A DNA stretch of 64,000 nt from Roseateles sp. (GTDB taxonomy: Bacteria > Pseudomonadota > Gammaproteobacteria > Burkholderiales > Burkholderiaceae_C): assembly GCA_016790285.1 (NCBI GenBank), contig JAEUPJ010000035.1, positions 37,802 to 101,801 on the forward strand. The letters are read 5' to 3'. A program made the translations under genes and the position numbers. The notes beneath the pieces were generated by a model. It was not told the origin of the DNA. It saw only the letters and a program-made list of their open reading frames with translations, and made no database searches. The stretch's first letter is position 1, and the number at the start of each line of letters is the position of its first letter. Below, one piece after another: positions 31,320 through 56,749 of the stretch.

Positions 31320-32078
31320 TCAGACCGTGATCGGCAGCCGCCGGTCCAGGCCGGCGAGGTCCTGGCAGAAGAAGCTGTCCTTCAGGTACTGGGGCTCGTA
31401 GCTGCGCACGTCGTAGTGCACCCAGGTGGGCGCGATGTCCGCCGGCTCCAGTGACTTGCGGTTGGCTCCCAGCCAGCCGATCTGCGCGTTGGACTTCTCC
31501 ACCAGCAGGCCCCGGACCTCATTGCAGCGGTCCATGTCCTCCCGCTTGCCCATGCCTGGCGCCAGCACGATGTCGATGTCCACGGCCTTGCCGTGGTGAT
31601 TGGTCGTCGTGCGCTGGTGGATCTGGTTGTCCACGCTGCAGCGGTAGCCCGACGAGAAGACGAAGCGCAGGTCGGCCCGGTAGGCGAACAGTGCGCGTGC
31701 GGCCCACAGGATCATGCGGTGGATGCCCGGGTACTCGTAGCGGTGGTTCTGCTCCGTCTTCACGCCCCCGAAGTACAGCCCCTTGAACTTGCCCTGCCCG
31801 AAGCCGCTGCAGGTACCGCAGCGGCAGCGCAGCGTGTCGAAGTCGATGGGAAACCGCCTGGCCAGGTCGTCGATGGCCTGGAAGGTCGCGCGGTCGACGA
31901 TGCCCGTGGGGGCGGGCAGGCGCATGCAGTCGCGCTGGAAGGCCTTGACCTGCAGCTCGGTGCCCGGGCCGAAGTCGCCGTCGGGCAGCGTGCCCCGAAA
32001 GCCGGCCAACCTCAGCTGCAGCTCGACGACATCGTCGCCCTGGGTGTCGCGCCGCAGGATGCGTTCGCCGTAGGCCAT
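31320..32078 (-). CDS. peptidoglycan-binding/M15-like peptidase
   Basis: A 252-residue protein with no signal peptide. Residues about 8-75 are a PG_binding_1 domain (GDDVVELQLRLAGFRG, DFGPGTELQVKAFQRD). Residues about 110-225 resemble the M15 D-Ala-D-Ala peptidases: SSGYRCSVDNQIH, NHHGKAVDID with candidate zinc ligands His161/162 and Asp167, and WVHYDV with His221. The HHG spacing is one residue shorter than the usual HxxG, so activity is likely but not certain. GGAGG lies 5 bp before the ATG. It is the last gene of a four-gene operon, 23 bp after the membrane protein. How it leaves the cytoplasm is unclear. Confidence 0.72.
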   Translation of the reverse strand: MAYGERILRRDTQGDDVVELQLRLAGFRGTLPDGDFGPGTELQVKAFQRDCMRLPAPTGIVDRATFQAIDDLARRFPIDFDTLRCRCGTCSGFGQGKFKGLYFGGVKTEQNHRYEYPGIHRMILWAARALFAYRADLRFVFSSGYRCSVDNQIHQRTTTNHHGKAVDIDIVLAPGMGKREDMDRCNEVRGLLVEKSNAQIGWLGANRKSLEPADIAPTWVHYDVRSYEPQYLKDSFFCQDLAGLDRRLPITV

Positions 32079-32101
32079 GGGTGCCTCCTTTCAATGGGGC
32101 T

Positions 32102-33730
32102 TCAGCGGCCGAGCAGTGCGTCGATCTCGGCCTGGTTCAGGGCGCCGGTGCCGCTGCCCGGTTGGCGCTGGTCTTGCCATGCCTGGATGCGCAAGCGGGT
32201 CTTGCCGTCGAACCATCCGCTGCAGTCGCCCTCGGCGATCAGCAGCGCGCGCTGGACGGCGCGCACCTGCGCTTCGGTGAGTGCCCGCTCGGCGTCGGTC
32301 GTGGCGTCGTGCATGGCCGTGCCAACGGGTCCCAAGGGCGCTGCGGGCGCGGCGCCGGCGGCGGCCACGGGTGGTGCAGGCGTCGCGGGTGCTGCGGAGC
32401 TGGCCTGGGGCTTGTCGCCGGAAGCGCGCAACCGGACGAGGCGGCTCAGGGCGTCGAACCAGAAAGGCGCGCCCAGCGTGCAGGCGAGGCCGACGATGAG
32501 CCAGCCCAGCAGGCTCACGAGCCGGTTGCCCCACCAGCACAGGTGCGCCGGGGCGAAGCCGGCCGGACAGCCGTGAAAGTACTGCGGTTGCGCCGACTCG
32601 GACCAGCCGATGGGCAGCCCCAGCCGCTGCAGCTCTTCCAGCGCCTCGGCACGCTGGCGCACCGCGCACAGCGACGCGTCTTCTGCGGCCCTACAAGGCT
32701 TGCCCTCGGGCGCCGACGCCGCAGCGCCGGGCCCGGCCGCCGGAGCCTGCGATGCCGGGGCCGGCGGCCGGGGCACGAGGGTATCGACCAGCTGGTCCTG
32801 CGCCAGCCTCACGGCCGCTGGCAGGCGTTCCCGCGGCAGGTCGTCCAGCAGCAGACGCGCGCTCGGCTGCAGGTCGCTCCACTGCGCGGGTGGCAGTTGG
32901 GCCAGCGACTTCTTGAAGTTCAGCACCCGCTCCAGCGTGGCCACCAGGCGCTTGTGCGTCAGCGCGTTGTCGCCCGCCGGGGCCTGGGCGATGGCGTCCT
33001 GCAAGGCGGTGCTGAGCGCGCCCAGGCGCGCCGCCGGGTCACCGGCAGGCACGGGCGACGGGGCGATGGCGGGCGCGGGAGCCCGCGCCGCCAGTTGGGC
33101 GACTTGTTCGCCGCTGGCGTAGCTGACGATGGCCGCGCGCAGGCCTTCGTCGTTCCACAGCCGTGTGGCCACCGTGATGGGGTTGATGTTCATCGCCGCA
33201 GCCGTCAGCACGCCGATCACGAACACGGTGAGCTGGACGTCGCGCTTGAACCAGCCGCTCGCGCGTTCGTTCACGGCGTCCCACCAGCCGCCCAGGCGCG
33301 CTTCGAAGGCGGGCCAGTCGTTCTCGACACCGTGGCTGAGCGCGACCAGCCCGTCCAGGAACTCCTGCGGCACGGCCTTGCCCTGCAGCAGTTCGATCAG
33401 CCCCTGCGGGCTGGCGGGGCGGACCTTCGTCGCCGTCAGCCCGATGAGATGCCCCAGCAGCGCAGGTACCAGGCTGCTCGCCTCGATGTAGGACGGCTTG
33501 CCCGGGTTGGCTTTGGTCTGGGGCGCCAGGGACACGAGCAGCGGGTGCTGCATGACCTTCAACGCGAAGGCGTTGTCGTCCCCGAGGAACGACACCAGGG
33601 CCTTTTGCAGGAAGAGTCCGCGCTTGCCCTTCATCTGTGACCAGGCCTCCTGCACGGCCGTCGTGAGCAGGCTCGTCAGGGCGAACACCAGGGCCAGGCC
33701 GATGGCGACGTCGATCAAACGGTTGTCCAT
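32102..33730 (-). CDS. membrane protein with C-terminal peptidoglycan-binding-like segment
   Basis: A 542-residue protein of no family I can name. A TM segment begins at residue 5 (LIDVAIGLALVFALTSLLTT). A second lies near 170-190 (LTVFVIGVLTAAAMNI) and a third near 430-455 (LLGWLIVGLACTLGAPFWF). Between the second and third is a large hydrophilic, Ala/Pro-rich domain with two Cys-containing patches (CRAAEDASLCAV, HGCPAGF). The last 55 residues (LTEAQVRAVQRALLIAEGDC, WFDGKTRLRIQAWQ) look like a PG_binding_1 domain. AAGGAAG precedes the ATG at 33730. Gaps of 10 and 23 bp to its neighbours show it belongs to the same operon. Confidence 0.7.
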   Translation of the reverse strand: MDNRLIDVAIGLALVFALTSLLTTAVQEAWSQMKGKRGLFLQKALVSFLGDDNAFALKVMQHPLLVSLAPQTKANPGKPSYIEASSLVPALLGHLIGLTATKVRPASPQGLIELLQGKAVPQEFLDGLVALSHGVENDWPAFEARLGGWWDAVNERASGWFKRDVQLTVFVIGVLTAAAMNINPITVATRLWNDEGLRAAIVSYASGEQVAQLAARAPAPAIAPSPVPAGDPAARLGALSTALQDAIAQAPAGDNALTHKRLVATLERVLNFKKSLAQLPPAQWSDLQPSARLLLDDLPRERLPAAVRLAQDQLVDTLVPRPPAPASQAPAAGPGAAASAPEGKPCRAAEDASLCAVRQRAEALEELQRLGLPIGWSESAQPQYFHGCPAGFAPAHLCWWGNRLVSLLGWLIVGLACTLGAPFWFDALSRLVRLRASGDKPQASSAAPATPAPPVAAAGAAPAAPLGPVGTAMHDATTDAERALTEAQVRAVQRALLIAEGDCSGWFDGKTRLRIQAWQDQRQPGSGTGALNQAEIDALLGR

Positions 33731-33740
33731 GGAGCTTCCT

Positions 33741-35159
33741 TCAGGCAACGCCCTTGAAGAACAGATGCCGGCCGATGCGGGCACAAGGCACCAGCCCGCG
33801 CGCCCAGCGCGGTGTGGCGACGGCGGCGGGCGCGTAGTAGTGGGTCGCCCCTTGCGTGGGGTCGCCATCGGGCAGCCGGCGCAGGCCATTGGCTTCGGCC
33901 GTGGCGACGCGGCGCGCGGCGTTGACGGCCAGCCGGAAGTCGCCGTCGGCCAGCGTGAGGGCCAGCAGCCGCCGTGCATTCGGGTCGTTGCTGTTCCAGC
34001 AGCTGAACTGCCACGGCTTGCGGCAGACCGACACGACGTCGCGCCCCCACCAGCTGCGCGCGGCAATGCGATTGAACACGACGTGGGCGACCGCCTCCAT
34101 GCCCTGCGGGCCTTCGCCGCGCGCCTCGCCCCAGAGGGTGCGCGCCAGCGTGGAGATGTCGTCGCCGAGGCTGGCTGCGTCGGCCGGGCTCGGGGGCTGC
34201 GCCGCGCGGACATCGGCGTCAGCCGTCGTGGTGCGCCGAGGCGGTGCGGCCAGGGCATCGCCGCGCTGCAGCGGGGACGCGCCAGCCCAGGCCAGGACGG
34301 GATGGATGGCGACGGCATAGGCCTCGCGGCCGTCCTTGGAGCCGCCTGCGTGCATGCCGACCCACTGGTCCTGCGCGTTCCAGATGGCGCCACCGCTCTG
34401 GCCGCCCGCGGTGGGCTGCGCGGGCCGCCAGCACAGGGCTTCGGTGAGCAGGTAGGGCGCCATCCCTGACCCCGCCAGCGACAGGCGCGCCGTGACGAGC
34501 TCCTGGAACACGCCCGGCACGATGCCGTCCGGGTCCATCAGGCGCAGCGGCTGCTGGGCCGAGCAGATGGCGGTGCCCGTGGGCAGGGCCTGCGGCGGCA
34601 GGGGCGCTGCCGCGAGGATGTCTGCCGGGACCTGCGCGACGGCGGCATCCAGCGCGGTGCTGATGCCCCCGAGCGTGAACTCCGGTGTCCAGTCCCGCAG
34701 GCGAGCGCGCAGCCCGGCACCCATCTCGACCTCGTCGCCGGGGGCTGCGCCGGCTTCCGCGCCCCAGACGTGGCCGGCGCTCAGGGCGTAGAAGCGGGCC
34801 GGGTCGGCGTGGGCCCGCAGCAGCCCGCTGACCAGGCCCTGCCGGCCGTTGCGGCTGGCATTGCGCGTGGTGGCCCACGACTGCGCCTGGGCGGGCCCGT
34901 CGTCGATGCGGCATTGCACCGGGATAGGTTCATGCGCATCCCACGCCGAGCGCAGCGTGCGAGGCCGCTCGCTGAAGGGCAACGCGGCATCGATCACCAG
35001 GGTCAGGCGCGCGTGGGTGCCCAGCGTCTGGCGCCAGCCGCGCAAGGCCCAGGCCGCTTCACCCAGGCCCAGCAGCGGCGCCAGCCGGGCGGCGCAGCCT
35101 GGCTGGGCGAGCAACGCGTCCAGCGCGCGCCGGGTGGCTTGGAGGTGGGGCCGCTTCAT
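33741..35159 (-). CDS. trypsin-like/SleB-like cell-wall hydrolase fusion
   Basis: A 472-residue protein with two enzyme modules. Residues about 95-300 look like a chymotrypsin-fold protease: SAGH130VW, LD171AAVAQV and GGQS255GGAIWN give a full His-Asp-Ser set in the right order. Residues about 335-470 are a SleB/CwlJ-type cell-wall hydrolase (LARTLWGEARGEGPQGMEAV with Glu345, VVFNRI, KPWQFSCWN, GATHYYAP). The N-terminal 90 residues are an unknown helical domain. There is no signal peptide. I know no described protein with this pairing. The start at 35159 follows the lipoprotein gene by 17 bp; the longer open frame to 35780 is a shadow of that gene. Confidence 0.75.
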   Translation of the reverse strand: MKRPHLQATRRALDALLAQPGCAARLAPLLGLGEAAWALRGWRQTLGTHARLTLVIDAALPFSERPRTLRSAWDAHEPIPVQCRIDDGPAQAQSWATTRNASRNGRQGLVSGLLRAHADPARFYALSAGHVWGAEAGAAPGDEVEMGAGLRARLRDWTPEFTLGGISTALDAAVAQVPADILAAAPLPPQALPTGTAICSAQQPLRLMDPDGIVPGVFQELVTARLSLAGSGMAPYLLTEALCWRPAQPTAGGQSGGAIWNAQDQWVGMHAGGSKDGREAYAVAIHPVLAWAGASPLQRGDALAAPPRRTTTADADVRAAQPPSPADAASLGDDISTLARTLWGEARGEGPQGMEAVAHVVFNRIAARSWWGRDVVSVCRKPWQFSCWNSNDPNARRLLALTLADGDFRLAVNAARRVATAEANGLRRLPDGDPTQGATHYYAPAAVATPRWARGLVPCARIGRHLFFKGVA

Positions 35160-35176
35160 GACGCCGTGGCTGCCGG

Positions 35177-37018
35177 CTAGCGCGTCTTGCAGGCGTTGGG
35201 GTTCGCACCCAGCGCGGTGATGACCTTGGCGACGTCGGTCTCCGTTTTCAGCGTGGCATCGGTGGCGCTGGCGTTGCAGGCCTTGATGGCAGCGTCGACA
35301 GCCGCATCGTCCACGCAGCCGTCCAGCTTCAAAGCCTTGGTGTCGGCCGACGTGAGCCCGGCAAACCGGCTCCTGGCGGCACAGGCGCCAGGGGCGGGTG
35401 CTGGCGCTGCTGCGGGCGCCGCCGCGGGTGCGGGTGCCGGTGCCGGTGCCGGTGCCGGTGCCGGTGCCGGTGCCGGTGCGGCGGCCGTGCCCACCTGGAC
35501 CTCGATCTGGCGCTCGGCCTGGCCCGCGCCATCGGCAAAGCGCAGGTGGATGAGCGTGCCGACCGCACTGCCCGCCGGCACGGGCAGGTCGAAGCGGAAC
35601 TGCCCGCCTTCGATCTTCAAAGGCAAAGGCCCGGGTGCCGGCCCGTCGATGACCGTTGCGGACGGCACGCCCGTGCCCCCCGCGACGAAGAAGGCTTGCG
35701 AGCCCCCTGCCGCCACCGCGACCGTCGGCCCCGGCGGCGTCACCGCCAGTGCCACGCCGCCCGTGGCTTGCAGCCGGCAATCCGCCAGCGCCGCACGCAG
35801 CTGGGCCGAGTTGGAGGCCGTCAGGCTGACGGACAGCGCATCGAGCCCTTCCTGCGCCAGCTCGACCGCCTGCGTCGCCTGACGAAGTTGCCGGATGGCC
35901 ACCGTGTCATCGTTCTCGGCCGCACGCACGCGCACGCCGGCCCGCTCGCCGCCTTGTGCGGCGCCGTCATGCACGGCCGGCGCCAGGGCGGTCGCACCCG
36001 TGAGCGTGAATCCCACCTCGCGCATGCCCTTGATGGCGGCGAACACGGAGGCGGTGTTGGGCACGGTCTTCTCCACTTCCTGGCTGACCGCGAGCTGGAT
36101 CTGCAGCGACTGGTGCCACAGCGCTTGAGCGGCGCCCGAGGCGCCCTCGATGGTGCGCAGCGCCTGCTGCTGCTGGGCTACGCTGGCTGCCGAACGCTGC
36201 CGCGCTTCGTCGTAGACCTTCCTCAGCTCGGCAGGGGCCTCCTCCCAGGCGAACTTCGCCGGCTCCGCGGCGTGGGAGATCGTCCGGGTCGTGGGCGGCG
36301 CCTGCTGGCAGACCTTGAACGCCAGCTTGTCCTCCGGGCTGGCGTCTGCGGCCGGTGCCTTGCACTTGGGGGGCTCCTTCACACGCTCGACCCAGGCCGC
36401 CTTGGGCGGCTCGGTCTGGATCCGGCGCGGCTCCGTCAGCGCGGCGTGCTGGATCAGCTGGCGGCGCAGGGCCGACTGCGCCAGCAGCAAGGCCTTGTAG
36501 CGCCCGTGCAGCGTGTCTTTCTCTGCGGTGTCGTCGGCGCTGCCCAGGCGTTTCTCGACGACACGCATCGGTTCGGCGGCCGTCAGCGCGCAGCCCAGCG
36601 CCTGGGCGCCAGCGCGGTAGACATCCCGCCGCGGCGCGGACACGAGGGTGGAGTTGAGCGCCCAGGCGGTCGAGCCCGCGATGCCGGCGCCCGCCATGTC
36701 GCGCGTGTTCGCGCCGGTGATGCCCTTGAACAGCGCCACGGCAGACAGCCCGATCAAGCCGGCACTCAGCACCGGGCCGCTGTTGCCTTGCGACTCGACG
36801 GCGGCGAGGTAGCGGCCCTGCACCTGGCTCACGTCCGTGATGGTGGCCTCGAGCGAGGCCGGCGCACCCTTGTTGGTGGTGACCCACTGGCCGTTGGCAT
36901 CCTTGGCAGCGACGAGACGGTCCGAGAAGATCTGTGGCGTCAGCGAGGAGCAGCCCGCGGCCGCCAGTGCTGAGGCGAGCAGGCACAGTCGCCCTGTACG
37001 GATGTTGATGCGTTCCAT
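35177..37018 (-). CDS. large lipoprotein, first gene of the envelope operon
   Basis: A 613-residue protein with a lipobox (LAAAGC|SSL, Cys23), so it is probably anchored in the outer membrane. The mature part has a hydrophobic stretch near 85-105 (LSAGLIGLSAVALFKGI), long helical segments (about 150-390), a beta-rich domain (about 420-520, resembling a bacterial Ig-like fold), an Ala-Pro repeat and a C-terminal Cys-containing domain. No enzyme motif is visible. GGGAGG lies 5 bp before the ATG. It is followed closely by the protease/cell-wall hydrolase fusion, the membrane protein and the M15-like peptidase, all on the same strand. The family is not recognised. Confidence 0.75.
   Translation of the reverse strand: MERINIRTGRLCLLASALAAAGCSSLTPQIFSDRLVAAKDANGQWVTTNKGAPASLEATITDVSQVQGRYLAAVESQGNSGPVLSAGLIGLSAVALFKGITGANTRDMAGAGIAGSTAWALNSTLVSAPRRDVYRAGAQALGCALTAAEPMRVVEKRLGSADDTAEKDTLHGRYKALLLAQSALRRQLIQHAALTEPRRIQTEPPKAAWVERVKEPPKCKAPAADASPEDKLAFKVCQQAPPTTRTISHAAEPAKFAWEEAPAELRKVYDEARQRSAASVAQQQQALRTIEGASGAAQALWHQSLQIQLAVSQEVEKTVPNTASVFAAIKGMREVGFTLTGATALAPAVHDGAAQGGERAGVRVRAAENDDTVAIRQLRQATQAVELAQEGLDALSVSLTASNSAQLRAALADCRLQATGGVALAVTPPGPTVAVAAGGSQAFFVAGGTGVPSATVIDGPAPGPLPLKIEGGQFRFDLPVPAGSAVGTLIHLRFADGAGQAERQIEVQVGTAAAPAPAPAPAPAPAPAPAPAAAPAAAPAPAPGACAARSRFAGLTSADTKALKLDGCVDDAAVDAAIKACNASATDATLKTETDVAKVITALGANPNACKTR
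35436..35477. repeat. (GCCGGT)7 hexamer repeat in lipoprotein gene
   Basis: Seven perfect tandem copies of GCCGGT encode an Ala-Pro repeat in the lipoprotein. Slippage by whole hexamers would keep the frame, so length variation between strains is possible. Confidence 0.9.
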
Positions 37019-37123: not shown

Positions 37124-38635
37124 TCAGGCGCTCGACCCCAACCCCCGCCGCAGCTGGATGGCCTCCGCCACGTGCGCCGCGCCCAGGTGCTCGGCACCGG
37201 CCAGGTCCGCCACGGTGCGCGCCACGCGCAGCACGCGGTGAAAGCTGCGCGCCGACCAGCCAAGCCGCTCGGCCGAGCGGTCCAGCAGCGCGCGGGCAGG
37301 GGCTTCAAGCACGGCGTGGTCGGCGAGTGCCTGGGGCGGCAGCAGGGCATTGGCGCAGCCCTGGCGCGCCAGGGCGCGCGACCGCGCTGCCGCCACGCGC
37401 GCGGCCACCGTGGCGCTGGCTTCACCCGGCGCGAGGTCCTGCAGGTCGCGCGGCGGGATGGCGGGCACCTCGATGAGGAGGTCGAGCCGGTCGAGGAAGG
37501 GGCCGCTCAGCCGCCCCTGGTAGCGGGCGACCTGGTCGGGCGTGCAGCGACAGGCCCGCAAGGGGTTGCCCAGGTGGCCGCAAGGGCAGGGGTTCATGGC
37601 CGCCACCAGCTGGAAGCGCGCCGGGAACTCGGCCTGGCGCGCCGCGCGCGAGATGAGGATGCGGCCCGTCTCCATCGGCTCGCGCAAGGCCTCCAGCGCG
37701 GTGCGCTGGAACTCCGGGAGTTCGTCGAGGAACAAGACGCCGTGCAGCGCCAGCGAGATCTCGCCCGGCCGCGGCGGCGAGCCGCCCCCCACCAGCGCCA
37801 CGCTGGACGCCGAGTGGTGCGGTGCCCGAAACGGCCGCTGCCCCCAGCGCGCGATGTCGAACTGCCCCGCCAGGCTCAGCACGGCGGCCGAGGCCAGTGC
37901 GTCGTCGTCCTCCAGGGCCGGCAGCAGCCCGGGCAGGCGCTGCGCGAGCATGGACTTGCCGGTGCCGGGCGGGCCCGTCATCAAGAGGGAATGACCGCCG
38001 GCCGCGGCGACCTCCAGCGCCCGCTTGGGGCCGGCCTGGCCACGGATGTCGGCGAGGTCCGGTCCCGCCAGCGGCGCCAGCCGGGGCAGTGCCGCGGCGC
38101 GGGGCAGGGCCTCGCCCTCGGGCTGCAGCGCCGCCACCACGTCCAGCAGGTGCCCGGCTTCCCGCACGACGAGGCCCTCGACGAGGGCCGCTTCGGCCGC
38201 GCTGGCGGCGGGCAGGAGCAGCTCCCGCGCGCCACCCGCCTGGCGCAGGGCCAGCGCCATGGCCAGCGCGCCGCGCACCGGGCGCAGTTCGCCGGCCAGG
38301 GACAGCTCGCCCGCGCACTCGAGCTGCGCCAGCCGCCCCGGCTCGATCTGGCCGTTGGCCGCCAGCAGGCCCAGCGCCATGGGGAGGTCGAAGCGGCCCC
38401 CCTCCTTGGGCAGGTCGGCGGGGGCGAGGTTCACCGTGATGCGCTTGTTGGCCGGGAAGGACAGCCCGCTGTTGTGCAGGGCGGCCCGCACGCGCTCGCG
38501 GGCTTCCTTGACCTCGGTGTCCGCCAGGCCCACGACGGTGAACGACGGCAGGCCATTGGCGAGGTGGACTTCCACGGTGACGGGGGCGGCGGCGAGCCCG
38601 TCGAGGGCGCGGGAGTGGACGGTGGCAAGGCTCAT
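37124..38635 (-). CDS. comM: YifB/ComM-family Mg-chelatase-like AAA ATPase
   Basis: A 503-residue protein. The N-terminal Lon-like fold (MSLATVHSRALDGLAAAPVT, VGLADTEVKEARERVRAALH) is followed by the AAA+ core: Walker A GPPGTGKSMLA, Walker B VLFLDELPEF, AMNPCPCGHLG and the C-terminal helical domain (RSFHRVLRVARTVADLAG). ComM is a hexameric helicase that extends branch migration during natural transformation. No other competence gene is in the window. The long frame continuing to 39997 on this strand is an artefact of overlapping genes; MSLATVHS at 38635 is the conserved start. Confidence 0.94.
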   Translation of the reverse strand: MSLATVHSRALDGLAAAPVTVEVHLANGLPSFTVVGLADTEVKEARERVRAALHNSGLSFPANKRITVNLAPADLPKEGGRFDLPMALGLLAANGQIEPGRLAQLECAGELSLAGELRPVRGALAMALALRQAGGARELLLPAASAAEAALVEGLVVREAGHLLDVVAALQPEGEALPRAAALPRLAPLAGPDLADIRGQAGPKRALEVAAAGGHSLLMTGPPGTGKSMLAQRLPGLLPALEDDDALASAAVLSLAGQFDIARWGQRPFRAPHHSASSVALVGGGSPPRPGEISLALHGVLFLDELPEFQRTALEALREPMETGRILISRAARQAEFPARFQLVAAMNPCPCGHLGNPLRACRCTPDQVARYQGRLSGPFLDRLDLLIEVPAIPPRDLQDLAPGEASATVAARVAAARSRALARQGCANALLPPQALADHAVLEAPARALLDRSAERLGWSARSFHRVLRVARTVADLAGAEHLGAAHVAEAIQLRRGLGSSA

Positions 38636-38711
38636 CGGGCCACGGTAGGGGCGCCGGGGCGGCCCGGTCCAGCCCTCACCAGCGCGCCACCCCGTGATGA
38701 ATTCCCGGCGC

Positions 38712-51642: not shown

Positions 51643-53324
51643 GGCGTCGCGACTTCGCCGCCCTGGGCCTGACCGCGCTGGGCGTGTCCGCCCGTGCCGA
51701 GGGCGCGGCCTTCGGCCAGATGAGCGAGCGCTTCCTCGAAGCGCTCTGGAAGCTCGACCCCGACGCCGCCGTGGCGGCGGGCCGCTTCGAGTTCGCCGGC
51801 CGCGTGACGCTCCCGAGCCCCGCTCAGCGCCTGCGCATGACCGCCTTCCTGACCGAGCAGCTCGCGGCCTTCGAGAAGCTGCCCGACGCGACGCTGAGCA
51901 CCAGCGAGCGCATGGACCGCGCCCTGCTCATCGGCAAGATGCGCAGCGACCTGTGGCGGCTGGAGGTGCTGCGTGAATGGTCGTGGAACCCGGCGGAGCA
52001 CAACCCCGCCGCGCCGCTGGACCTGCTGCTCAACACGGAGTACGCACCGCTGCGCGAGCGCGTGCGCGCCCTGCAGCCGCGCGTGGCGGCGCTGCCGGGC
52101 TACTACCGCGCCGCGAGGCTCAGCCTGGCGGGCGTCACGCGCGAGCACACCGAGCTGGCCATCCAGCAGGCCCCGGGCGTGCTGGGCGTGCTCGACGACA
52201 TCGCCAAGCGCGCCGCCGAGGCCGGCCAGGCCAGCGCCTTGCGCGCGCCGATCGCCACCGCGCGGGCCGCCGTCAATGCCTACGTCGCACACCTCAAGAC
52301 GCTGCAGCCCACACGCGGCTTCCGCCTGGGCGCGGCCCTGTACGAGCCCAAGTTCCAGCACGACATCCAGTCGGCCCGCACCGCCAAGGAGACCTACGAG
52401 CTGGCGCAGCAGCGCCGCGAGGAGGTGCTCGCCAGCATGCAGGAGCAGGCCGCGCAGCTGTGGCCGACCGTCATGGGCAGCGAGCCCGTGCCGACGGACC
52501 GCTTCGCGCTGATCGGCCGTGTCATCGACAAGCTCAGCGCGCGGCATGTGGCGCGCGAGCGATTCGTCGAGGAGATCCGCGCGCAGATCCCGCAGCTGGA
52601 GGCCTGGGTGCGCGACCACGACCTGCTCAGCCAGGACGCCAGCAAGCCCCTCATCGTGCGCGAGACGCCCGAGTACCAGCGCGGCGTGGCTGGGGCCAGC
52701 ATCGAGGCCCCCGGCGCCTACCGGCCGCAGGACAAGACCTACTACAACGTCACGCCGCTGACCGACCTCACGCCCGAGCAGGCCGAGAGTTCGCTGCGCG
52801 AGTACAACCACTGGATCCTGCAGATCCTCAACATCCACGAGGCCATCCCGGGGCACTACACGCAGCTCGTGCATGCCAACCGCACACCGAGCAAGGTCAA
52901 GGCGCTGTTCGGCAACGGCGCCATGGTCGAGGGCTGGGCCGTGTACGGCGAGCGCATGATGATCGAGAGCGGCTACGGCGCCTCGCCCGAGATGACGCTG
53001 ATGTGGGGCAAGTGGCACCTGCGCTCGGTCACCAACACCGTGCTGGACTACAGCGTGCACGTGCTGGGCATGCAGGAGGCCCAGGCGCTGGACCTGCTCG
53101 TGCGCCAGGCCTTCCAGACGGAGCGCGAGGCGAAGGAGAAGTGGCGCCGCGTGCAGCTCACCTCCGTGCAGCTGACGAGCTACTTCAGCGGCTACAGCGA
53201 GATCTTCGCGCTGCGCGAGCAGCTCAAGGCGCGGCCTGGGTTCAACCTCAAGGCCTTCCACGAGCAGTTCCTGAGCTACGGCAACGCGCCGGTGCGGCTG
53301 ATCGCCGCCGAGATGCTCGGCTAG
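51639..53324 (+). CDS. DUF885 family exported metallopeptidase-like protein
   Basis: A 561-residue protein with an N-terminal MRRRDFAALGLTALGVSARA stretch that could be a short export signal (RRxF resembles the Tat motif). Long helical repeats follow. The metal-like motif HEAIPGHYTQLVH begins at residue 400 and is followed by MVEGWAVYGERMM, the DUF885 core that resembles a zinc peptidase. The natural substrate is unknown. It starts inside the gshB stop (ATGA), so it is co-translated with gshB; a role in glutathione or peptide turnover is possible but unproven. Confidence 0.87.
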   Translation: MRRRDFAALGLTALGVSARAEGAAFGQMSERFLEALWKLDPDAAVAAGRFEFAGRVTLPSPAQRLRMTAFLTEQLAAFEKLPDATLSTSERMDRALLIGKMRSDLWRLEVLREWSWNPAEHNPAAPLDLLLNTEYAPLRERVRALQPRVAALPGYYRAARLSLAGVTREHTELAIQQAPGVLGVLDDIAKRAAEAGQASALRAPIATARAAVNAYVAHLKTLQPTRGFRLGAALYEPKFQHDIQSARTAKETYELAQQRREEVLASMQEQAAQLWPTVMGSEPVPTDRFALIGRVIDKLSARHVARERFVEEIRAQIPQLEAWVRDHDLLSQDASKPLIVRETPEYQRGVAGASIEAPGAYRPQDKTYYNVTPLTDLTPEQAESSLREYNHWILQILNIHEAIPGHYTQLVHANRTPSKVKALFGNGAMVEGWAVYGERMMIESGYGASPEMTLMWGKWHLRSVTNTVLDYSVHVLGMQEAQALDLLVRQAFQTEREAKEKWRRVQLTSVQLTSYFSGYSEIFALREQLKARPGFNLKAFHEQFLSYGNAPVRLIAAEMLG

Positions 53325-53492
53325 GCCGGCGCGCCCGCTCGCCGAGCGCTGAACGGCGGGCGGAGCGTGCGATAGCTCACCAATTCGGCCTGCCGGCCTG
53401 TCAACGTGGCGGCCCGGCTCGCTAGCATGAACGTGCCGCACGGCTTGGCCATCGCATGAGGCGGCGCCCCATCCTGCCTGCCGGATCACCCC

Positions 53493-53948
53493 ATGCGCCA
53501 TCTTCTGCACATCTTCGTCCCGCGTCTGGCCCTGCTGCTGCTCGCCGGGGGGCTGTCGGTATCGGCCAGCGCCCAGGTCTTCAAGTGCGTCGACGCCTCA
53601 GGCCAGACGGCCTATCAGTCGCAGCCTTGCCCGGATGCCACGCGCAGCTCGCAGGTCGACGTGCGCTCCGTCTCCTCACTGCCGACGCTGTCCGGCACCG
53701 GCACGGCCGCCGAGATCCGCCAGGCCGTCGTGGCCAACTGCCTGGGTGCTGCCGGGCGCAGCACGCCGGCCATGATCCGTCTGGCCGCCGAGCAGCCGCG
53801 CAAGTTCCGCGCCTTTTGTGACTGCACGGCCGACGGCGTGATGCCGCAGGTCGACAAGATCAAGGAGCTCTACGCCCGCAAGGATGCGGCCGGCATCGAG
53901 CGCCTGGGTATGCAGGTCGGCCTGGCCTGCGCGTCGCGACTGCAGTAG
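53493..53948 (+). CDS. DUF4124-domain exported protein
   Basis: A 151-residue protein with a signal peptide (cut after SASA) followed by the DUF4124 signature QVFKCVDASGQTAYQSQPCP, with its conserved Cys pair. The C-terminal half contains further Cys (VVANCLG, FCDCTADG, GLACASR) and may form disulfides in the periplasm. DUF4124 proteins are common in beta-proteobacteria and have no known function. The gene is single, between a DUF885 gene and a convergent monooxygenase gene. Confidence 0.85.
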   Translation: MRHLLHIFVPRLALLLLAGGLSVSASAQVFKCVDASGQTAYQSQPCPDATRSSQVDVRSVSSLPTLSGTGTAAEIRQAVVANCLGAAGRSTPAMIRLAAEQPRKFRAFCDCTADGVMPQVDKIKELYARKDAAGIERLGMQVGLACASRLQ

Positions 53949-53981
53949 CGCGCGGGGCGCCTTCCGCCGGCCGGAGCCCGT

Positions 53982-55211
53982 TCAGCGGGCTTCGGGCGCC
54001 AGCTGGTGCCCGGCAGCCGCCTTGTAGCTGTTGATCTCGCGGGCCACCTCGGCGGGGTCGATGACGTCTTCCAGCCGCGCAAAGCCCTCGGGGGCCAGCG
54101 CCTCCACGCGGTCCAGGATGGCGTCCAGCCCCTCGCGCCGGTTCATCTCGACGATGCGCGCGCACAGGGGCCGGCGTTCGTTCTCGTAGGCGGCCAACGC
54201 GGCGTCGAGGTCGGTGTGGGTGGCCAGCGCCTCGGCCAGGGCCTGGGCATCCATGATGGCCTGCGTCGCGCCGTTGGAGCCGATGGGGTACATGGGGTGG
54301 GCGGCGTCGCCCAGCAGCGTGGAGCGGCCCAGCTGCCAGCGCGGCAGCGGGTCGCGGTCCACCATGGGCCACTCCAGCATCTGCTCGGCGCGGGTGATGA
54401 GCCCGGGCACGTCCAGCCAGTCGAAGTGCCAGCGCCCGAAGGTGGGCAGCAGGTCGTCCAGCCGGCCGGCGCGGCTCCAGTCGGCGCGGTCGGGGGCGGT
54501 GAGGCCCGGCACCGGTTCGCGCACGCGGCGGTCGGCAATCCAGTTGATGAGCTGCAGCCCGTCCTCGCGCGGCGCGCCGATCGGGTAGACGACGAACTTG
54601 GCCTGGCTGAAGCCGGCCTGCACCATCGTGCGGCCGTCCAGGAAGGGCGGCGCCCAGGTGGTGCCGCGCCACATCATCACGCCGCGCCAGCACGGCGGGC
54701 CCTCGTCCGGCACCAGGCGCCGGCGCAGCGCGGAGTGGATGCCGTCGGCGCCGACGACCAGGTCGGCCGCGAGCTCGCGCGGGCCGTCGGCGGTGTCGAT
54801 CTCGGCCACCGCGCGACCGCCCTCGTCGCGCACGTTCACGACGCGCTGCCCGCTGATCAGCGTGACCTTGCGCGCCGCCTCGGCCCACAGCCGCATCTGC
54901 AGCTCGCCGCGGTGGATGCTGAACTGCGGGTGCGCGTAGCCGCCTCCCAGACCGCGCGGGTCACGGTAGATGGCCTGGCCGTGGCGGTTGGCAAAGACCA
55001 GGGCGGATGTCTCGACCGCCATGGTGCGCAGCGCCGGCAGCAGGCCCAGGCCCGACAGCACGCCCACCGCGTGCGGCAGCAGGTTGATGCCCACGCCCAG
55101 CGGTCGGGGTTCGCGAACGGCCTCGAGCACGGTCACCTCATGGCCGCGTGCGTGGAGCGCGAGGGCGGCGGTCAACCCTCCGATGCCACCGCCGGAAATG
55201 ATGATCTGCAT
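53982..55211 (-). CDS. FAD-dependent aromatic-type monooxygenase
   Basis: A 409-residue group A flavoprotein hydroxylase. MQIIISGGGIGGLTAALALH is the FAD dinucleotide motif, VVGADGIHSALRR the DG motif and TLLGDAAHPMYPIGSNGATQAIMDA the GD motif. This group hydroxylates aromatic rings with NAD(P)H and oxygen. The exact substrate is unknown. The start at 55211 has no ribosome site; a promoter (TTGCCT, 17 bp, TACCCT) ends 6 bp before it, so the transcript is likely leaderless. It diverges from a marR gene and is probably controlled by it. The frame open to 55781 is a shadow. Confidence 0.92.
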   Translation of the reverse strand: MQIIISGGGIGGLTAALALHARGHEVTVLEAVREPRPLGVGINLLPHAVGVLSGLGLLPALRTMAVETSALVFANRHGQAIYRDPRGLGGGYAHPQFSIHRGELQMRLWAEAARKVTLISGQRVVNVRDEGGRAVAEIDTADGPRELAADLVVGADGIHSALRRRLVPDEGPPCWRGVMMWRGTTWAPPFLDGRTMVQAGFSQAKFVVYPIGAPREDGLQLINWIADRRVREPVPGLTAPDRADWSRAGRLDDLLPTFGRWHFDWLDVPGLITRAEQMLEWPMVDRDPLPRWQLGRSTLLGDAAHPMYPIGSNGATQAIMDAQALAEALATHTDLDAALAAYENERRPLCARIVEMNRREGLDAILDRVEALAPEGFARLEDVIDPAEVAREINSYKAAAGHQLAPEAR

Positions 55212-55215
55212 CAAC

Positions 55216-55261
55216 TCAGGGTATGCGAGATTGTTGCAGTAGGCAACCAAACCTACCCTGA
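55216..55261. promoter_or_regulatory. overlapping divergent promoters with MarR operator
   Basis: Plus strand: TTGTTG (55231-55236), 17 bp, TACCCT (55254-55259), then 6 bp to the marR GTG. Minus strand: TTGCCT (55246-55241), 17 bp, TACCCT (55223-55218), then 6 bp to the monooxygenase ATG. The dyad TTGTTGC-AGTAG-GCAACCAA (55231-55250) covers both -35 boxes and is the likely MarR operator. The outer TCAGGGTA/TACCCTGA dyad is simply the two -10 regions facing outward. Confidence 0.78.
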
Positions 55262-55265
55262 AGGC

Positions 55266-55790
55266 GTGACCAAGACTGACAGTCCCGACCCCGAAGGCCT
55301 GATGCTGCCCGTGCCGGGCATCGACTACGGCCTGCTCGACAGCCTGCTCGGCTACGCGCTGCGCCGTGCGCAGAACGCGCTCTACCTCGACTTCTACCGC
55401 GCCACTGCCGAGTGGGACGTGAGCCCGCAGCGCTTTGCCGCCCTCGTGCTCATCGCCCGCAACCCGGGCCTGCGCCAGGGCCTGCTCGGCCAGGCCATGG
55501 GCCTGCACCGCAGCGGCGCGCTGCGCCTGACCGACTGGCTCACCGCCAACGGCTGGGCCGAGCGGCGCGATGCACCGGGCGATGCCCGCGCCTGGGGCCT
55601 GTACCTCACGCCCACCGGCAAGCGCCGCCTTGCCAAGCTGGAGGCCGCCGTGGCCGCGCACGACCGCGCCCTCGTCGCAGCCCTCGGCGAGCAGGGCCCC
55701 GCACTGAAGGCCGGGCTGGACCGCCTCGCCTGGGCCGCCACCGCACAGAGCACCGCCCCCGACAACACCACCAGGAGACAAAAGCCATGA
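55266..55790 (+). CDS. MarR-family transcriptional regulator
   Basis: A 174-residue winged-helix protein. LLDSLLGYALRRAQNALYLDF is the dimer helix, and LTDWLTANGWAERRDAPGDARAWGLYLTPTGKRRL is the wing with the conserved DxR. It begins with GTG at 55266, which follows the -10 box by only 6 bp, so translation may be leaderless. The same frame is open far upstream, but that is the antisense of the monooxygenase gene. Its stop overlaps the start of the binding-protein gene by 4 bp. It probably represses the divergent monooxygenase gene and its own operon until an aromatic ligand binds. Confidence 0.88.
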   Translation: MTKTDSPDPEGLMLPVPGIDYGLLDSLLGYALRRAQNALYLDFYRATAEWDVSPQRFAALVLIARNPGLRQGLLGQAMGLHRSGALRLTDWLTANGWAERRDAPGDARAWGLYLTPTGKRRLAKLEAAVAAHDRALVAALGEQGPALKAGLDRLAWAATAQSTAPDNTTRRQKP

Positions 55791-56749
55791 TGGACCGACG
55801 CCACCTTCTTGCCGCGATCGCGGCCCTGCCGCTTGCGGCGCGCGCCCAGGGGCAGCCGCCCCGCATCCTCGTCGGCTTCCCCGCCGGCGGCTCGGTGGAC
55901 ACCACCGCCCGGCGCTTCGCCGAGTTCGGCCGCGGCAAGCTGGCCGAGACCGTGCTCGTCGAGCAGAAGGTCGGCGCTGGCGGGCGCATCGCCGTGGCGG
56001 CCCTCAAGGACGCCGCGCCCGATGGGCAGACGCTCATGATCAGCCCGTCGTCGATGTTCACCATCTACCCACACGCCTACCGCAAGCTGGCCTACAACCC
56101 GGCGACCGATGTCATCCCCGTCGCGCCGCTGGCGCTGTCCAGTTGCGGCTTCGGGGTCGGACCCATGGTGCCGGCCTCGGTCAAGACGCTGGCGCAGTTC
56201 GCCGATTGGGCCAAGGCCAACGCCGACAAGGCCGCCTACGCATCGCCCGCGGCCGGTGCCATGCCCCACTTCCTGGGCAACCAGTTCGAGCATGCGGCGG
56301 GCCTGAAGCTCACGCACGCGCCCTACCGCGGCGCCGCGCCCGGCATGCAGGACCTCATGGGCGGCCAGATCGCCTCGGGCTGCTTCTCCATCGGCGACTT
56401 CCTGCCCCACCTCGCCAGCGGCCGCGTGCGGCTGCTCGGCGTCACCGACAAGGCGCGCTCGCGTTTCGCGCCTGATGTGCCCACCTTCGAGGAGCAGGGC
56501 TTCAAGGGCATCGTGGGCGTGGAGAGCTATGGCCTGTTCGTGCCGGCCAGGACGCCGCAAGCCGTCATCGACAAGCTCGCCGAGGTGGCGCGCGCCGCCG
56601 TGCGCGAGCCCGGCGTCGTCGAGGCCCTGGGCAAGCTCGGCTTCGAGCCGCTGAGCCTGTCCCCGGCCGACTACGCCAAGCGCCTGGCGGCAGAGCGTGA
56701 GTACTGGGGCCCCGTCGTCAAGGCGTCGGGTTTCTCGTCGGACGATTAG
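55787..56749 (+). CDS. Bug/TctC-type periplasmic substrate-binding protein
   Basis: A 320-residue protein with a signal peptide (MMDRRHLLAAIAALPLAARA). FPAGGSVDTTARRFAEFGR, NKVGAGGRIAV-like and YRGAAPGMQDLMGGQI motifs place it in the tripartite tricarboxylate transporter receptor (Bug) family, greatly expanded in Burkholderiales. It should bind a small organic acid in the periplasm. No TctA/TctB membrane genes are next to it, so it is an orphan receptor as is common. AGGAG lies 9 bp before the ATG, and the gene overlaps marR, which links its ligand to the monooxygenase pathway. Confidence 0.92.
   Translation: MMDRRHLLAAIAALPLAARAQGQPPRILVGFPAGGSVDTTARRFAEFGRGKLAETVLVEQKVGAGGRIAVAALKDAAPDGQTLMISPSSMFTIYPHAYRKLAYNPATDVIPVAPLALSSCGFGVGPMVPASVKTLAQFADWAKANADKAAYASPAAGAMPHFLGNQFEHAAGLKLTHAPYRGAAPGMQDLMGGQIASGCFSIGDFLPHLASGRVRLLGVTDKARSRFAPDVPTFEEQGFKGIVGVESYGLFVPARTPQAVIDKLAEVARAAVREPGVVEALGKLGFEPLSLSPADYAKRLAAEREYWGPVVKASGFSSDD

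Follow-up and report, generated by a model that had tools for sequence, protein, structure and literature searches.

In the excerpts of PMC10598620 and PMC8213781 drawn on here, particles of extracellular contractile injection systems (eCIS) exit by lysis of the producer, and the lysis genes described are those of R-tailocins, whose release is called extensively studied. Type 10 or lysis cassettes (Serratia ChiWXYZ, Yersinia YenLC), as portrayed in the excerpts of PMC10847048, are non-phage chromosomal cassettes with an inner-membrane protein, a dependent wall enzyme and an outer-membrane spanin part, and their lysis frees large cytosolic cargo. In Caulobacter, phage-derived particles are set free by a lysis for which the trypsin-like peptidases of LypABC are essential; holin-endolysin genes were not found in that case, and the excerpts of the source name no peptidoglycan hydrolase (PMC13236601). 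Here we describe an operon of four genes, A to D, in a 64,000-nucleotide stretch of DNA from Roseateles sp. (contig JAEUPJ010000035.1, positions 37,802 to 101,801; the window), in which wall hydrolases are tied to a membrane protein. To our knowledge, the exit route of other eCIS is largely open, and A-D is a concrete candidate for their release.

We tentatively favour the reading, on which we are almost evenly divided, that A-D is an accessory, non-phage module for self-lysis and release, and we call it endolysin-like because the C-terminal end of C is predicted to be cytoplasmic. As phage endolysins do, hydrolases B and D would stay on the cytosolic face of the inner membrane until a trigger of C or a breach of the membrane let them reach the wall. 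The SleB domain of B would then cut glycan strands, and D, or an enzyme fused to C, would cut peptides. Lipoprotein A, for which an outer-membrane location is assumed and which may be processed by the trypsin-like domain of B, would handle the last barrier. The parts could in this way cover all three layers, with an inner-membrane protein, two wall cutters, a protease and a lipoprotein, and the release of cytosolic eCIS particles would be a likely, if not exclusive, purpose. The reading draws on the single insertion of the four genes, the constant order of A-B-C, the wall hydrolase of varying type, the charge pattern of C, the lytic enzymes beside short forms of C and the co-occurrence of B with eCIS. 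If true, the reading would account for a large family of membrane proteins without a Pfam match and would extend endolysin-style lysis beyond phages.

Such a module works like a holin, endolysin and spanin set or a type 10 cassette but is not a member of either class, as it has no holin and no recognisable spanin. It shares with the type 10 cassettes the non-phage chromosomal setting, the inner-membrane protein and, on this reading, a dependent wall enzyme, but a trypsin-like/SleB fusion is added and the hydrolase is often fused to C. Like phage lysis sets, it draws on exchangeable enzymes (M15, amidase, GH25, CHAP and muramidase) and has three transmembrane segments (TMs) with a predicted N-out/C-in topology, like that of holins; unlike them, its C is a protein of 542 amino acids (aa) with two large loops and finds no match among the phage records searched. 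LypABC has CARD-like and NLR/ATPase parts, according to the excerpts of PMC13236601, whereas A-D holds no ATPase family. The gene set had struck an earlier note on this DNA as matching no described system, and our search of open-licence PMC papers likewise found no description of it.

Layout, insertion and distribution of the operon

The same note had taken the four genes for a tightly packed envelope operon, and this was confirmed, with all of them on the minus strand. Of its peptidoglycan modules in B, C and D and its two hydrolases, B and D, Pfam bears out the SleB domain of B and the peptidoglycan-binding domain of D; C has a weak match in this copy, and the M15-like part of D is the weakest call. 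The features are, in window coordinates:

31320-37018, minus strand: operon A-B-C-D, four genes with gaps of 17, 10 and 23 bp
37018-35177, minus strand: gene A, lipoprotein of 613 aa, lipobox AAGC with Cys23
35159-33741, minus strand: gene B, trypsin-like serine peptidase and SleB-type cell wall hydrolase, 472 aa
34260-34838, minus strand: trypsin-like domain of B, about residues 108-300, with His130, Asp171 and Ser255; limits approximate
33756-34118, minus strand: SleB/Hydrolase_2 part of B (residues 348-468), with Glu345 immediately N-terminal to it, in WGEARGE
33730-32102, minus strand: gene C, membrane protein with three TMs, 542 aa
32117-32275, minus strand: C-terminal PG_binding_1-like domain of C, predicted to be cytosolic; E 0.19 in this copy
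32078-31320, minus strand: gene D, PG_binding_1 and M15-like part, 252 aa
31302-37123, no strand: inserted segment, from comparison with the same-genus genome G597 (L209)

Gene B was searched for in a sample of 399 genomes of the family and was found in 11 of them, and in one of the six genomes of its own genus. The order A-B-C is kept at all 12 places of B in these 11 genomes (four that are also named loci, one in G622 and seven others). A scan of named genomes gave at least 80 loci with a relative of C, and 17 of those listed have B directly upstream. B stands beside C in these 17 listed long loci by definition, and the independent test of the order is provided by the 12 B places. The named loci also overlap the family sample (L090/G805, L092/G013, L095/G062, L099/G706, L103/G681, L104/G595 and L156/G077), and the two sets are not independent. 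Genes of the relatives were called with a simple script, which got some starts and strands wrong (e.g. L097, L104 and L106); open frames were used there.

The operon has a glycine-zipper gene on its left and comM on its right; in G597 the matches to these two genes end 17 bases apart, and no match to A-D lies nearby. Because the flanking genes adjoin in this genome of the same genus, A-D is one inserted unit. About 40 bases separate comM from a partial glycine-zipper match in G676, and the spacing between the two genes is about 2.0 kb in G803, 3.3 kb in G743 and 4.3 kb in G030, with no A-D matches there. The chromosomal spot at comM may be a site of repeated insertion. For comM itself (37124-38692; relatives L207 and L208), the matches in G030 fall into parts separated by about 56 kb, and those in G743 are scattered too.

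Contig C101 of the Roseateles genome carries another A-B-C set, which is divergent (52293-56170, L026). Its A match is weak (E 0.002), its C ends in a peptidoglycan-binding and a CHAP-like part, and a further trypsin-like gene lies downstream.

Enzymes, lipoprotein and membrane protein

The C-terminal domain of B is of the same type as the spore cortex-lytic enzyme SleB, with the difference that it is fused to a trypsin-like peptidase. It matches Hydrolase_2/SleB (PF07486, E 1.4e-16, Pfam) and PDB 4f55 (E 2.2e-13), and in NCBIfam it reaches 43 bits with TIGR02869, the equivalog cut-off of which is 236.5 bits. The peptidase part matches Trypsin_2 of Pfam at E 8.6e-4, under the curated cut-off. 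Asp171 and Ser255 are kept in all 15 B proteins that hold the region and Glu345 in 16 of 16, and His130 is invariant in the six rows of its alignment (6/6). In Roseateles oligotrophus (L023/L092), a frame change, which may be real or an assembly artefact, breaks B between its trypsin and SleB parts (about 7620-7690 in L023).

D carries a PG_binding_1 domain at about 31872-32042 (E 6.8e-12, Pfam). Its M15-like part, at about 31395-31667, has no Pfam match in this copy and was recognised by a weak match of residues 138-228 to the endolysin profile phrog_894 (E 0.0095) together with motifs seen by eye. The D of one relative, L021, was tested and is a Peptidase_M15_4 (E 2.4e-14), and the M15_4 motif is present in all seven separate SH3+M15 proteins of the relatives (7/7; SH3 by eye). 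Across the 17 listed B loci, the hydrolase beside C is a separate gene in eight (SH3+M15 in seven, an amidase in one) and is fused to C in another eight (three of them weak), and a hydrolase gene or domain accompanies C in 16 of the 17. The fused enzyme is M15_4 in L097, L098 and L099; it is CHAP in L162, above the cut-off, and in L103, L104 and L106, below it; and the C of L100 has a fused muramidase and a CHAP match under the cut-off. The C of L140 has no Pfam match, and its end looks CHAP-like by eye. Outside the named set, L026 has a CHAP match under the cut-off, L171 a muramidase and L025 an M15 part recognised by eye. D is an exchangeable hydrolase and not a fixed component.

The earlier note had looked to conserved synteny of all four genes as support for a system, and what we saw was synteny of A-B-C at 12 of 12 places, with D replaced by other hydrolases. 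Its proposal of a dedicated machine acting on the wall is upheld by the constant A-B-C order, the clean insertion and the near-constant presence of a hydrolase, and the outcome may be self-lysis, secretion or attack on other cells.

The product of A has a helical body, a stretch that by eye looks Ig-like and an (AP)n linker near its C-terminus. It belongs to no family in Pfam, PHROGs or PADLOC, and NCBIfam gave two negligible matches, the best at E 0.011; matches to keratin (best E 0.038) were not accepted as evidence. A homologue of A was found upstream of B by profile in 14 of the 17 listed B loci, and in L106, L140 and L162 a lipobox gene was recognised by eye. The lipobox was found by pattern in 10 of 12 A proteins; the pattern overlooked the one in L093, and L103 is probably miscalled.

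The TMs of C lie at about residues 8-26, 165-183 and 404-422, and the protein carries the motif GAPFWFD. Fourteen residues are invariant across 35 sequences from several phyla. The PG_binding_1 domain is clear in several homologues, namely those of L026 (E 9.1e-10), L104 (4.2e-13), L103 (9.3e-13) and L171 (7.4e-27). A loop of C matched the Apaf-1 CARD at only E 0.64, which is not significant, and this match was not accepted as evidence. Net charge beside the TMs was analysed in 35 C proteins, 15 from B loci and 20 short forms that stand without A and B. The N-terminus is negative in all 35, the segment after TM1 is positive in 29, that before TM2 is positive in 27, and that after TM3 is positive in all 35. 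These charge patterns suggest that C is N-out/C-in, in which case its peptidoglycan-binding domain and any hydrolase fused to it would face the cytoplasm.

N-terminal hydropathy is 1.76 for the A of the window as against 1.14 for B and 0.71 for D, in agreement with the earlier remark that only the lipoprotein has a clear export signal. By this measure, which stands in for a dedicated signal-peptide predictor, the predicted peptidoglycan enzymes without a signal-like N-terminus are the SleB protein B and D, and both are predicted not to be exported by Sec. The comparison took in 16 rows for B (that of L092 a C-terminal fragment, and some in which the start was called too late) and 10 for D (the second L096 row being unrelated).

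Several properties of the proteins weigh against self-lysis. The N-termini of B and D are less hydrophobic than those of A, but the ranges touch, with 1.62 for the D of L094 and 1.56 for the A of L156. The segment of C after TM2, expected to be periplasmic, is positive in 19 of the 35 proteins and negative in only 6, and that before TM3 is mixed (12 proteins positive, 15 negative). The argument from topology and export is weakened by the charge after TM2 and by the overlap in hydropathy. Apart from the weak PG_binding_1 match, searches of Pfam, PHROGs and NCBIfam assigned C to no family, holin families included; holins are far smaller than its 542 aa. Nothing that resembles a spanin was recognised in A.

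A-D could instead be an ordinary operon for cell-wall maintenance, the SleB and M15 enzymes of which leave the cytoplasm by an export route that escaped recognition. We consider this distinctly improbable. SleB and M15 enzymes are common wall enzymes, and both domains are found here, but the operon is rare and patchy in the family and genus and was inserted as a unit. Furthermore, by hydropathy its enzymes have no signal-like N-termini, the type of enzyme is swapped between loci, and lipases and subtilases lie beside relatives of C.

Contractile particles, phages and secretion systems

We used Pvc16_N as the marker of eCIS, and 67 of the 399 family genomes are positive for it: 9 of the 11 that have B and 58 of the 388 others (Fisher p 2.7e-6). 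In the named set, where the genomes of 50 of the 80 listed loci were searched, it is present in 12 of the 17 listed genomes with B, which overlap the family sample, and in 17 of the 33 genomes searched that have a short C, one of them under the cut-off. At the level of the order, 9 of 25 C-positive genomes have it, against 51 of 399 overall (p 0.002).

Several observations on this association count further against self-lysis for eCIS release. B-negative genomes of the same genera are often eCIS-positive, and the link is confounded. Three carriers, G143, L091 and L094, have neither a Pvc16_N nor a sheath match in their genomes, which weakens any strict dependence on eCIS. Physical linkage is confined to G062, at a distance of 2.3 kb with other genes between, and to the short C of L030 and L170, although the profiles used for this search were built mostly from the same family and could miss distant eCIS genes. 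The operon in the window is itself outside any eCIS cluster, lying on contig C38 while the eCIS of its genome is on C8. That cluster (C8, about 158.8-187 kb; L051, L052 and L216) comprises two sheath and two tube genes, CIS_tube, gp25, Baseplate_J, Tail_P2_I and AAA, and in the 15 of its genes that were scanned no holin or endolysin family was found at E 0.001.

The same association can be read in another way, namely that C is a docking or firing station that anchors contractile particles at the inner membrane, with the hydrolases opening the wall locally and without lysis. The short C follows an eCIS gene run directly in L170 and a DUF6519 gene in L030, and the cytosolic contractile particles of Streptomyces have a known membrane adaptor, CisA (PMC12237407). 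However, CisA as described in the excerpts of that paper is bitopic, with a cytoplasmic N-terminus and an external C-terminus, and its gene belongs to the particle cluster, whereas C is predicted to have three TMs and an internal C-terminus, and its gene mostly lies apart from those of eCIS. The carriers without Pvc16_N and sheath matches also speak against docking, and it leaves the protease and lipase neighbours of short C unexplained. We regard it as improbable, to about the same degree as cell-wall maintenance.

A phage lysis cassette proper was rejected, since a search of 50,697 phage records with the C of the window (single-sequence tblastn) gave no match. The earlier note had named a match to a known phage lysis cluster as a finding that would speak against a new system, and none appeared in this collection. 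One relative of C was met in a scan of viral contigs with one C peptide, and ten plasmid records hold relatives. In the phage collection, the only matches covering more than 80% of D come from one phage (two of four records), and they fall within a gene for a peptidase that neighbours a Vgr-like gene. In the record concerned (L217:858-6428, "Acinetobacter phage MD-2021a"), the relative of D makes up part of a 'putative peptidase' directly after the Vgr-like gene. The presence of gshA and dsbB nearby suggests that this record contains chromosomal DNA.

The link of a D relative to Vgr leads to the main alternative, which we judge unlikely: that A-D is an antibacterial effector set, with B, D and the variable enzymes as toxins without signals, delivered by the type VI secretion system (T6SS) or eCIS, and with A and/or C as envelope immunity. 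The enzymes near C overlap the types of T6SS effectors (Tle1-like, patatin, M15, amidase and muramidase), and VipB, the T6SS sheath marker, is found in 7 of the 11 B-positive genomes, including that of the window, a count for which no background rate is available. Both this count and the Vgr-linked relative of D tell against self-lysis. However, the remaining 4 of the 11 have no VipB match, and fusion of the hydrolase to the membrane protein, as in 8 of the 17 listed B loci, would suit neither a toxin nor an immunity protein. Nor is conservation of 14 residues of C across several phyla in keeping with an effector set. The three VipB matches in the genome of the window are on contigs C74 and C75.

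Relatives of C in other phyla

The earlier note held that independent occurrence of the four genes would argue against a system, and this was found in part: C stands without A and B in 63 of the 80 listed loci, and D is exchangeable. These short forms of C occur in Bacteroidota, Acidobacteria, Nitrospira, Alphaproteobacteria and other groups. They have an operonic neighbour within 60 bp in 36 of the 63 loci. Of 61 such neighbours, 54 distinct ones were scanned with Pfam; the other seven were six genes downstream and a poorly called one upstream. L145:12085-14457, among these six, showed no family above the cut-off. The families found were S8 subtilase (10), GH25 (5), PG_binding_1 (5), M15_4 (4), Amidase_2 (3), patatin (3) and Tle1-like (2), with Muramidase, CHAP and Trypsin_2 once each. 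As a control, 52 of 53 distal genes were scanned; among the 25 of 107 families listed, the only hydrolase-like one in at least two genes was Rv2525c_GlyHyd-like, in two, and the others in at least two were regulators.

We considered whether C could represent a widespread, undescribed class of lysis scaffold, an inner-membrane protein with three TMs that holds exchangeable cytosolic hydrolases and is used across phyla independently of phage holins and spanins. The proteases and phospholipases beside C would then help to dismantle the envelope from inside, releasing contractile particles or other large cargo. We think this generalisation rather doubtful. The absence of A and B from most loci also tells against the self-lysis reading, as does the lack of any neighbour within 60 bp in 27 of the 63 listed loci with short C. 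Other neighbours belong to unrelated families (LGT, cytochrome and dioxygenase), and several of the neighbour sets come from close relatives and are not independent events.

A further alternative is a defence module, by which an infected cell would be lysed or killed in abortive infection. One neighbour of short C carries the TIR domain of CAP12/Pycsar effectors (PF10137). Patatin and Tle1-like lipases, which lie near short C, are types used in defence, and in Caulobacter the trypsin-like peptidases of LypABC, together with a CARD-NLR-like ATPase, drive lysis for gene transfer agents (excerpts of PMC13236601). However, the best PADLOC match of the four proteins reached only E 0.017, and no NTPase family was found in A-D with Pfam, PHROGs, NCBIfam or PADLOC. 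We rate defence as the least probable of these explanations. The carrier of PF10137 may be L139:11017-12132, a guess from its sequence, or another of the neighbours scanned.

Individual loci with short C vary in layout. On a Hymenobacter plasmid, C is followed after 1 bp by an amidase and then by an S8 peptidase, and on a Vitreoscilla plasmid C stands alone amid unrelated genes. In L121, an Azospirillum metagenome-assembled genome, a three-TM holin of the gene-transfer-agent type (2172-2768, PF11351) lies 26 bp upstream of short C and is the sole Pfam holin among the scanned neighbours. In Sphingomonas aerophila (L108:9114-13194), a small gene with a lipobox-like start, a gene for 112 aa, short C and an M15 peptidase gene stand in a row that resembles a lysis cassette. 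In the Bacteroidota loci L112, L114, L119 and L127, the genes after short C encode SH3+GH25, SH3+subtilase and a protein of 664-749 aa, which has a signal-like start and belongs to no known family, and this set parallels the layout of A-B-C-D.

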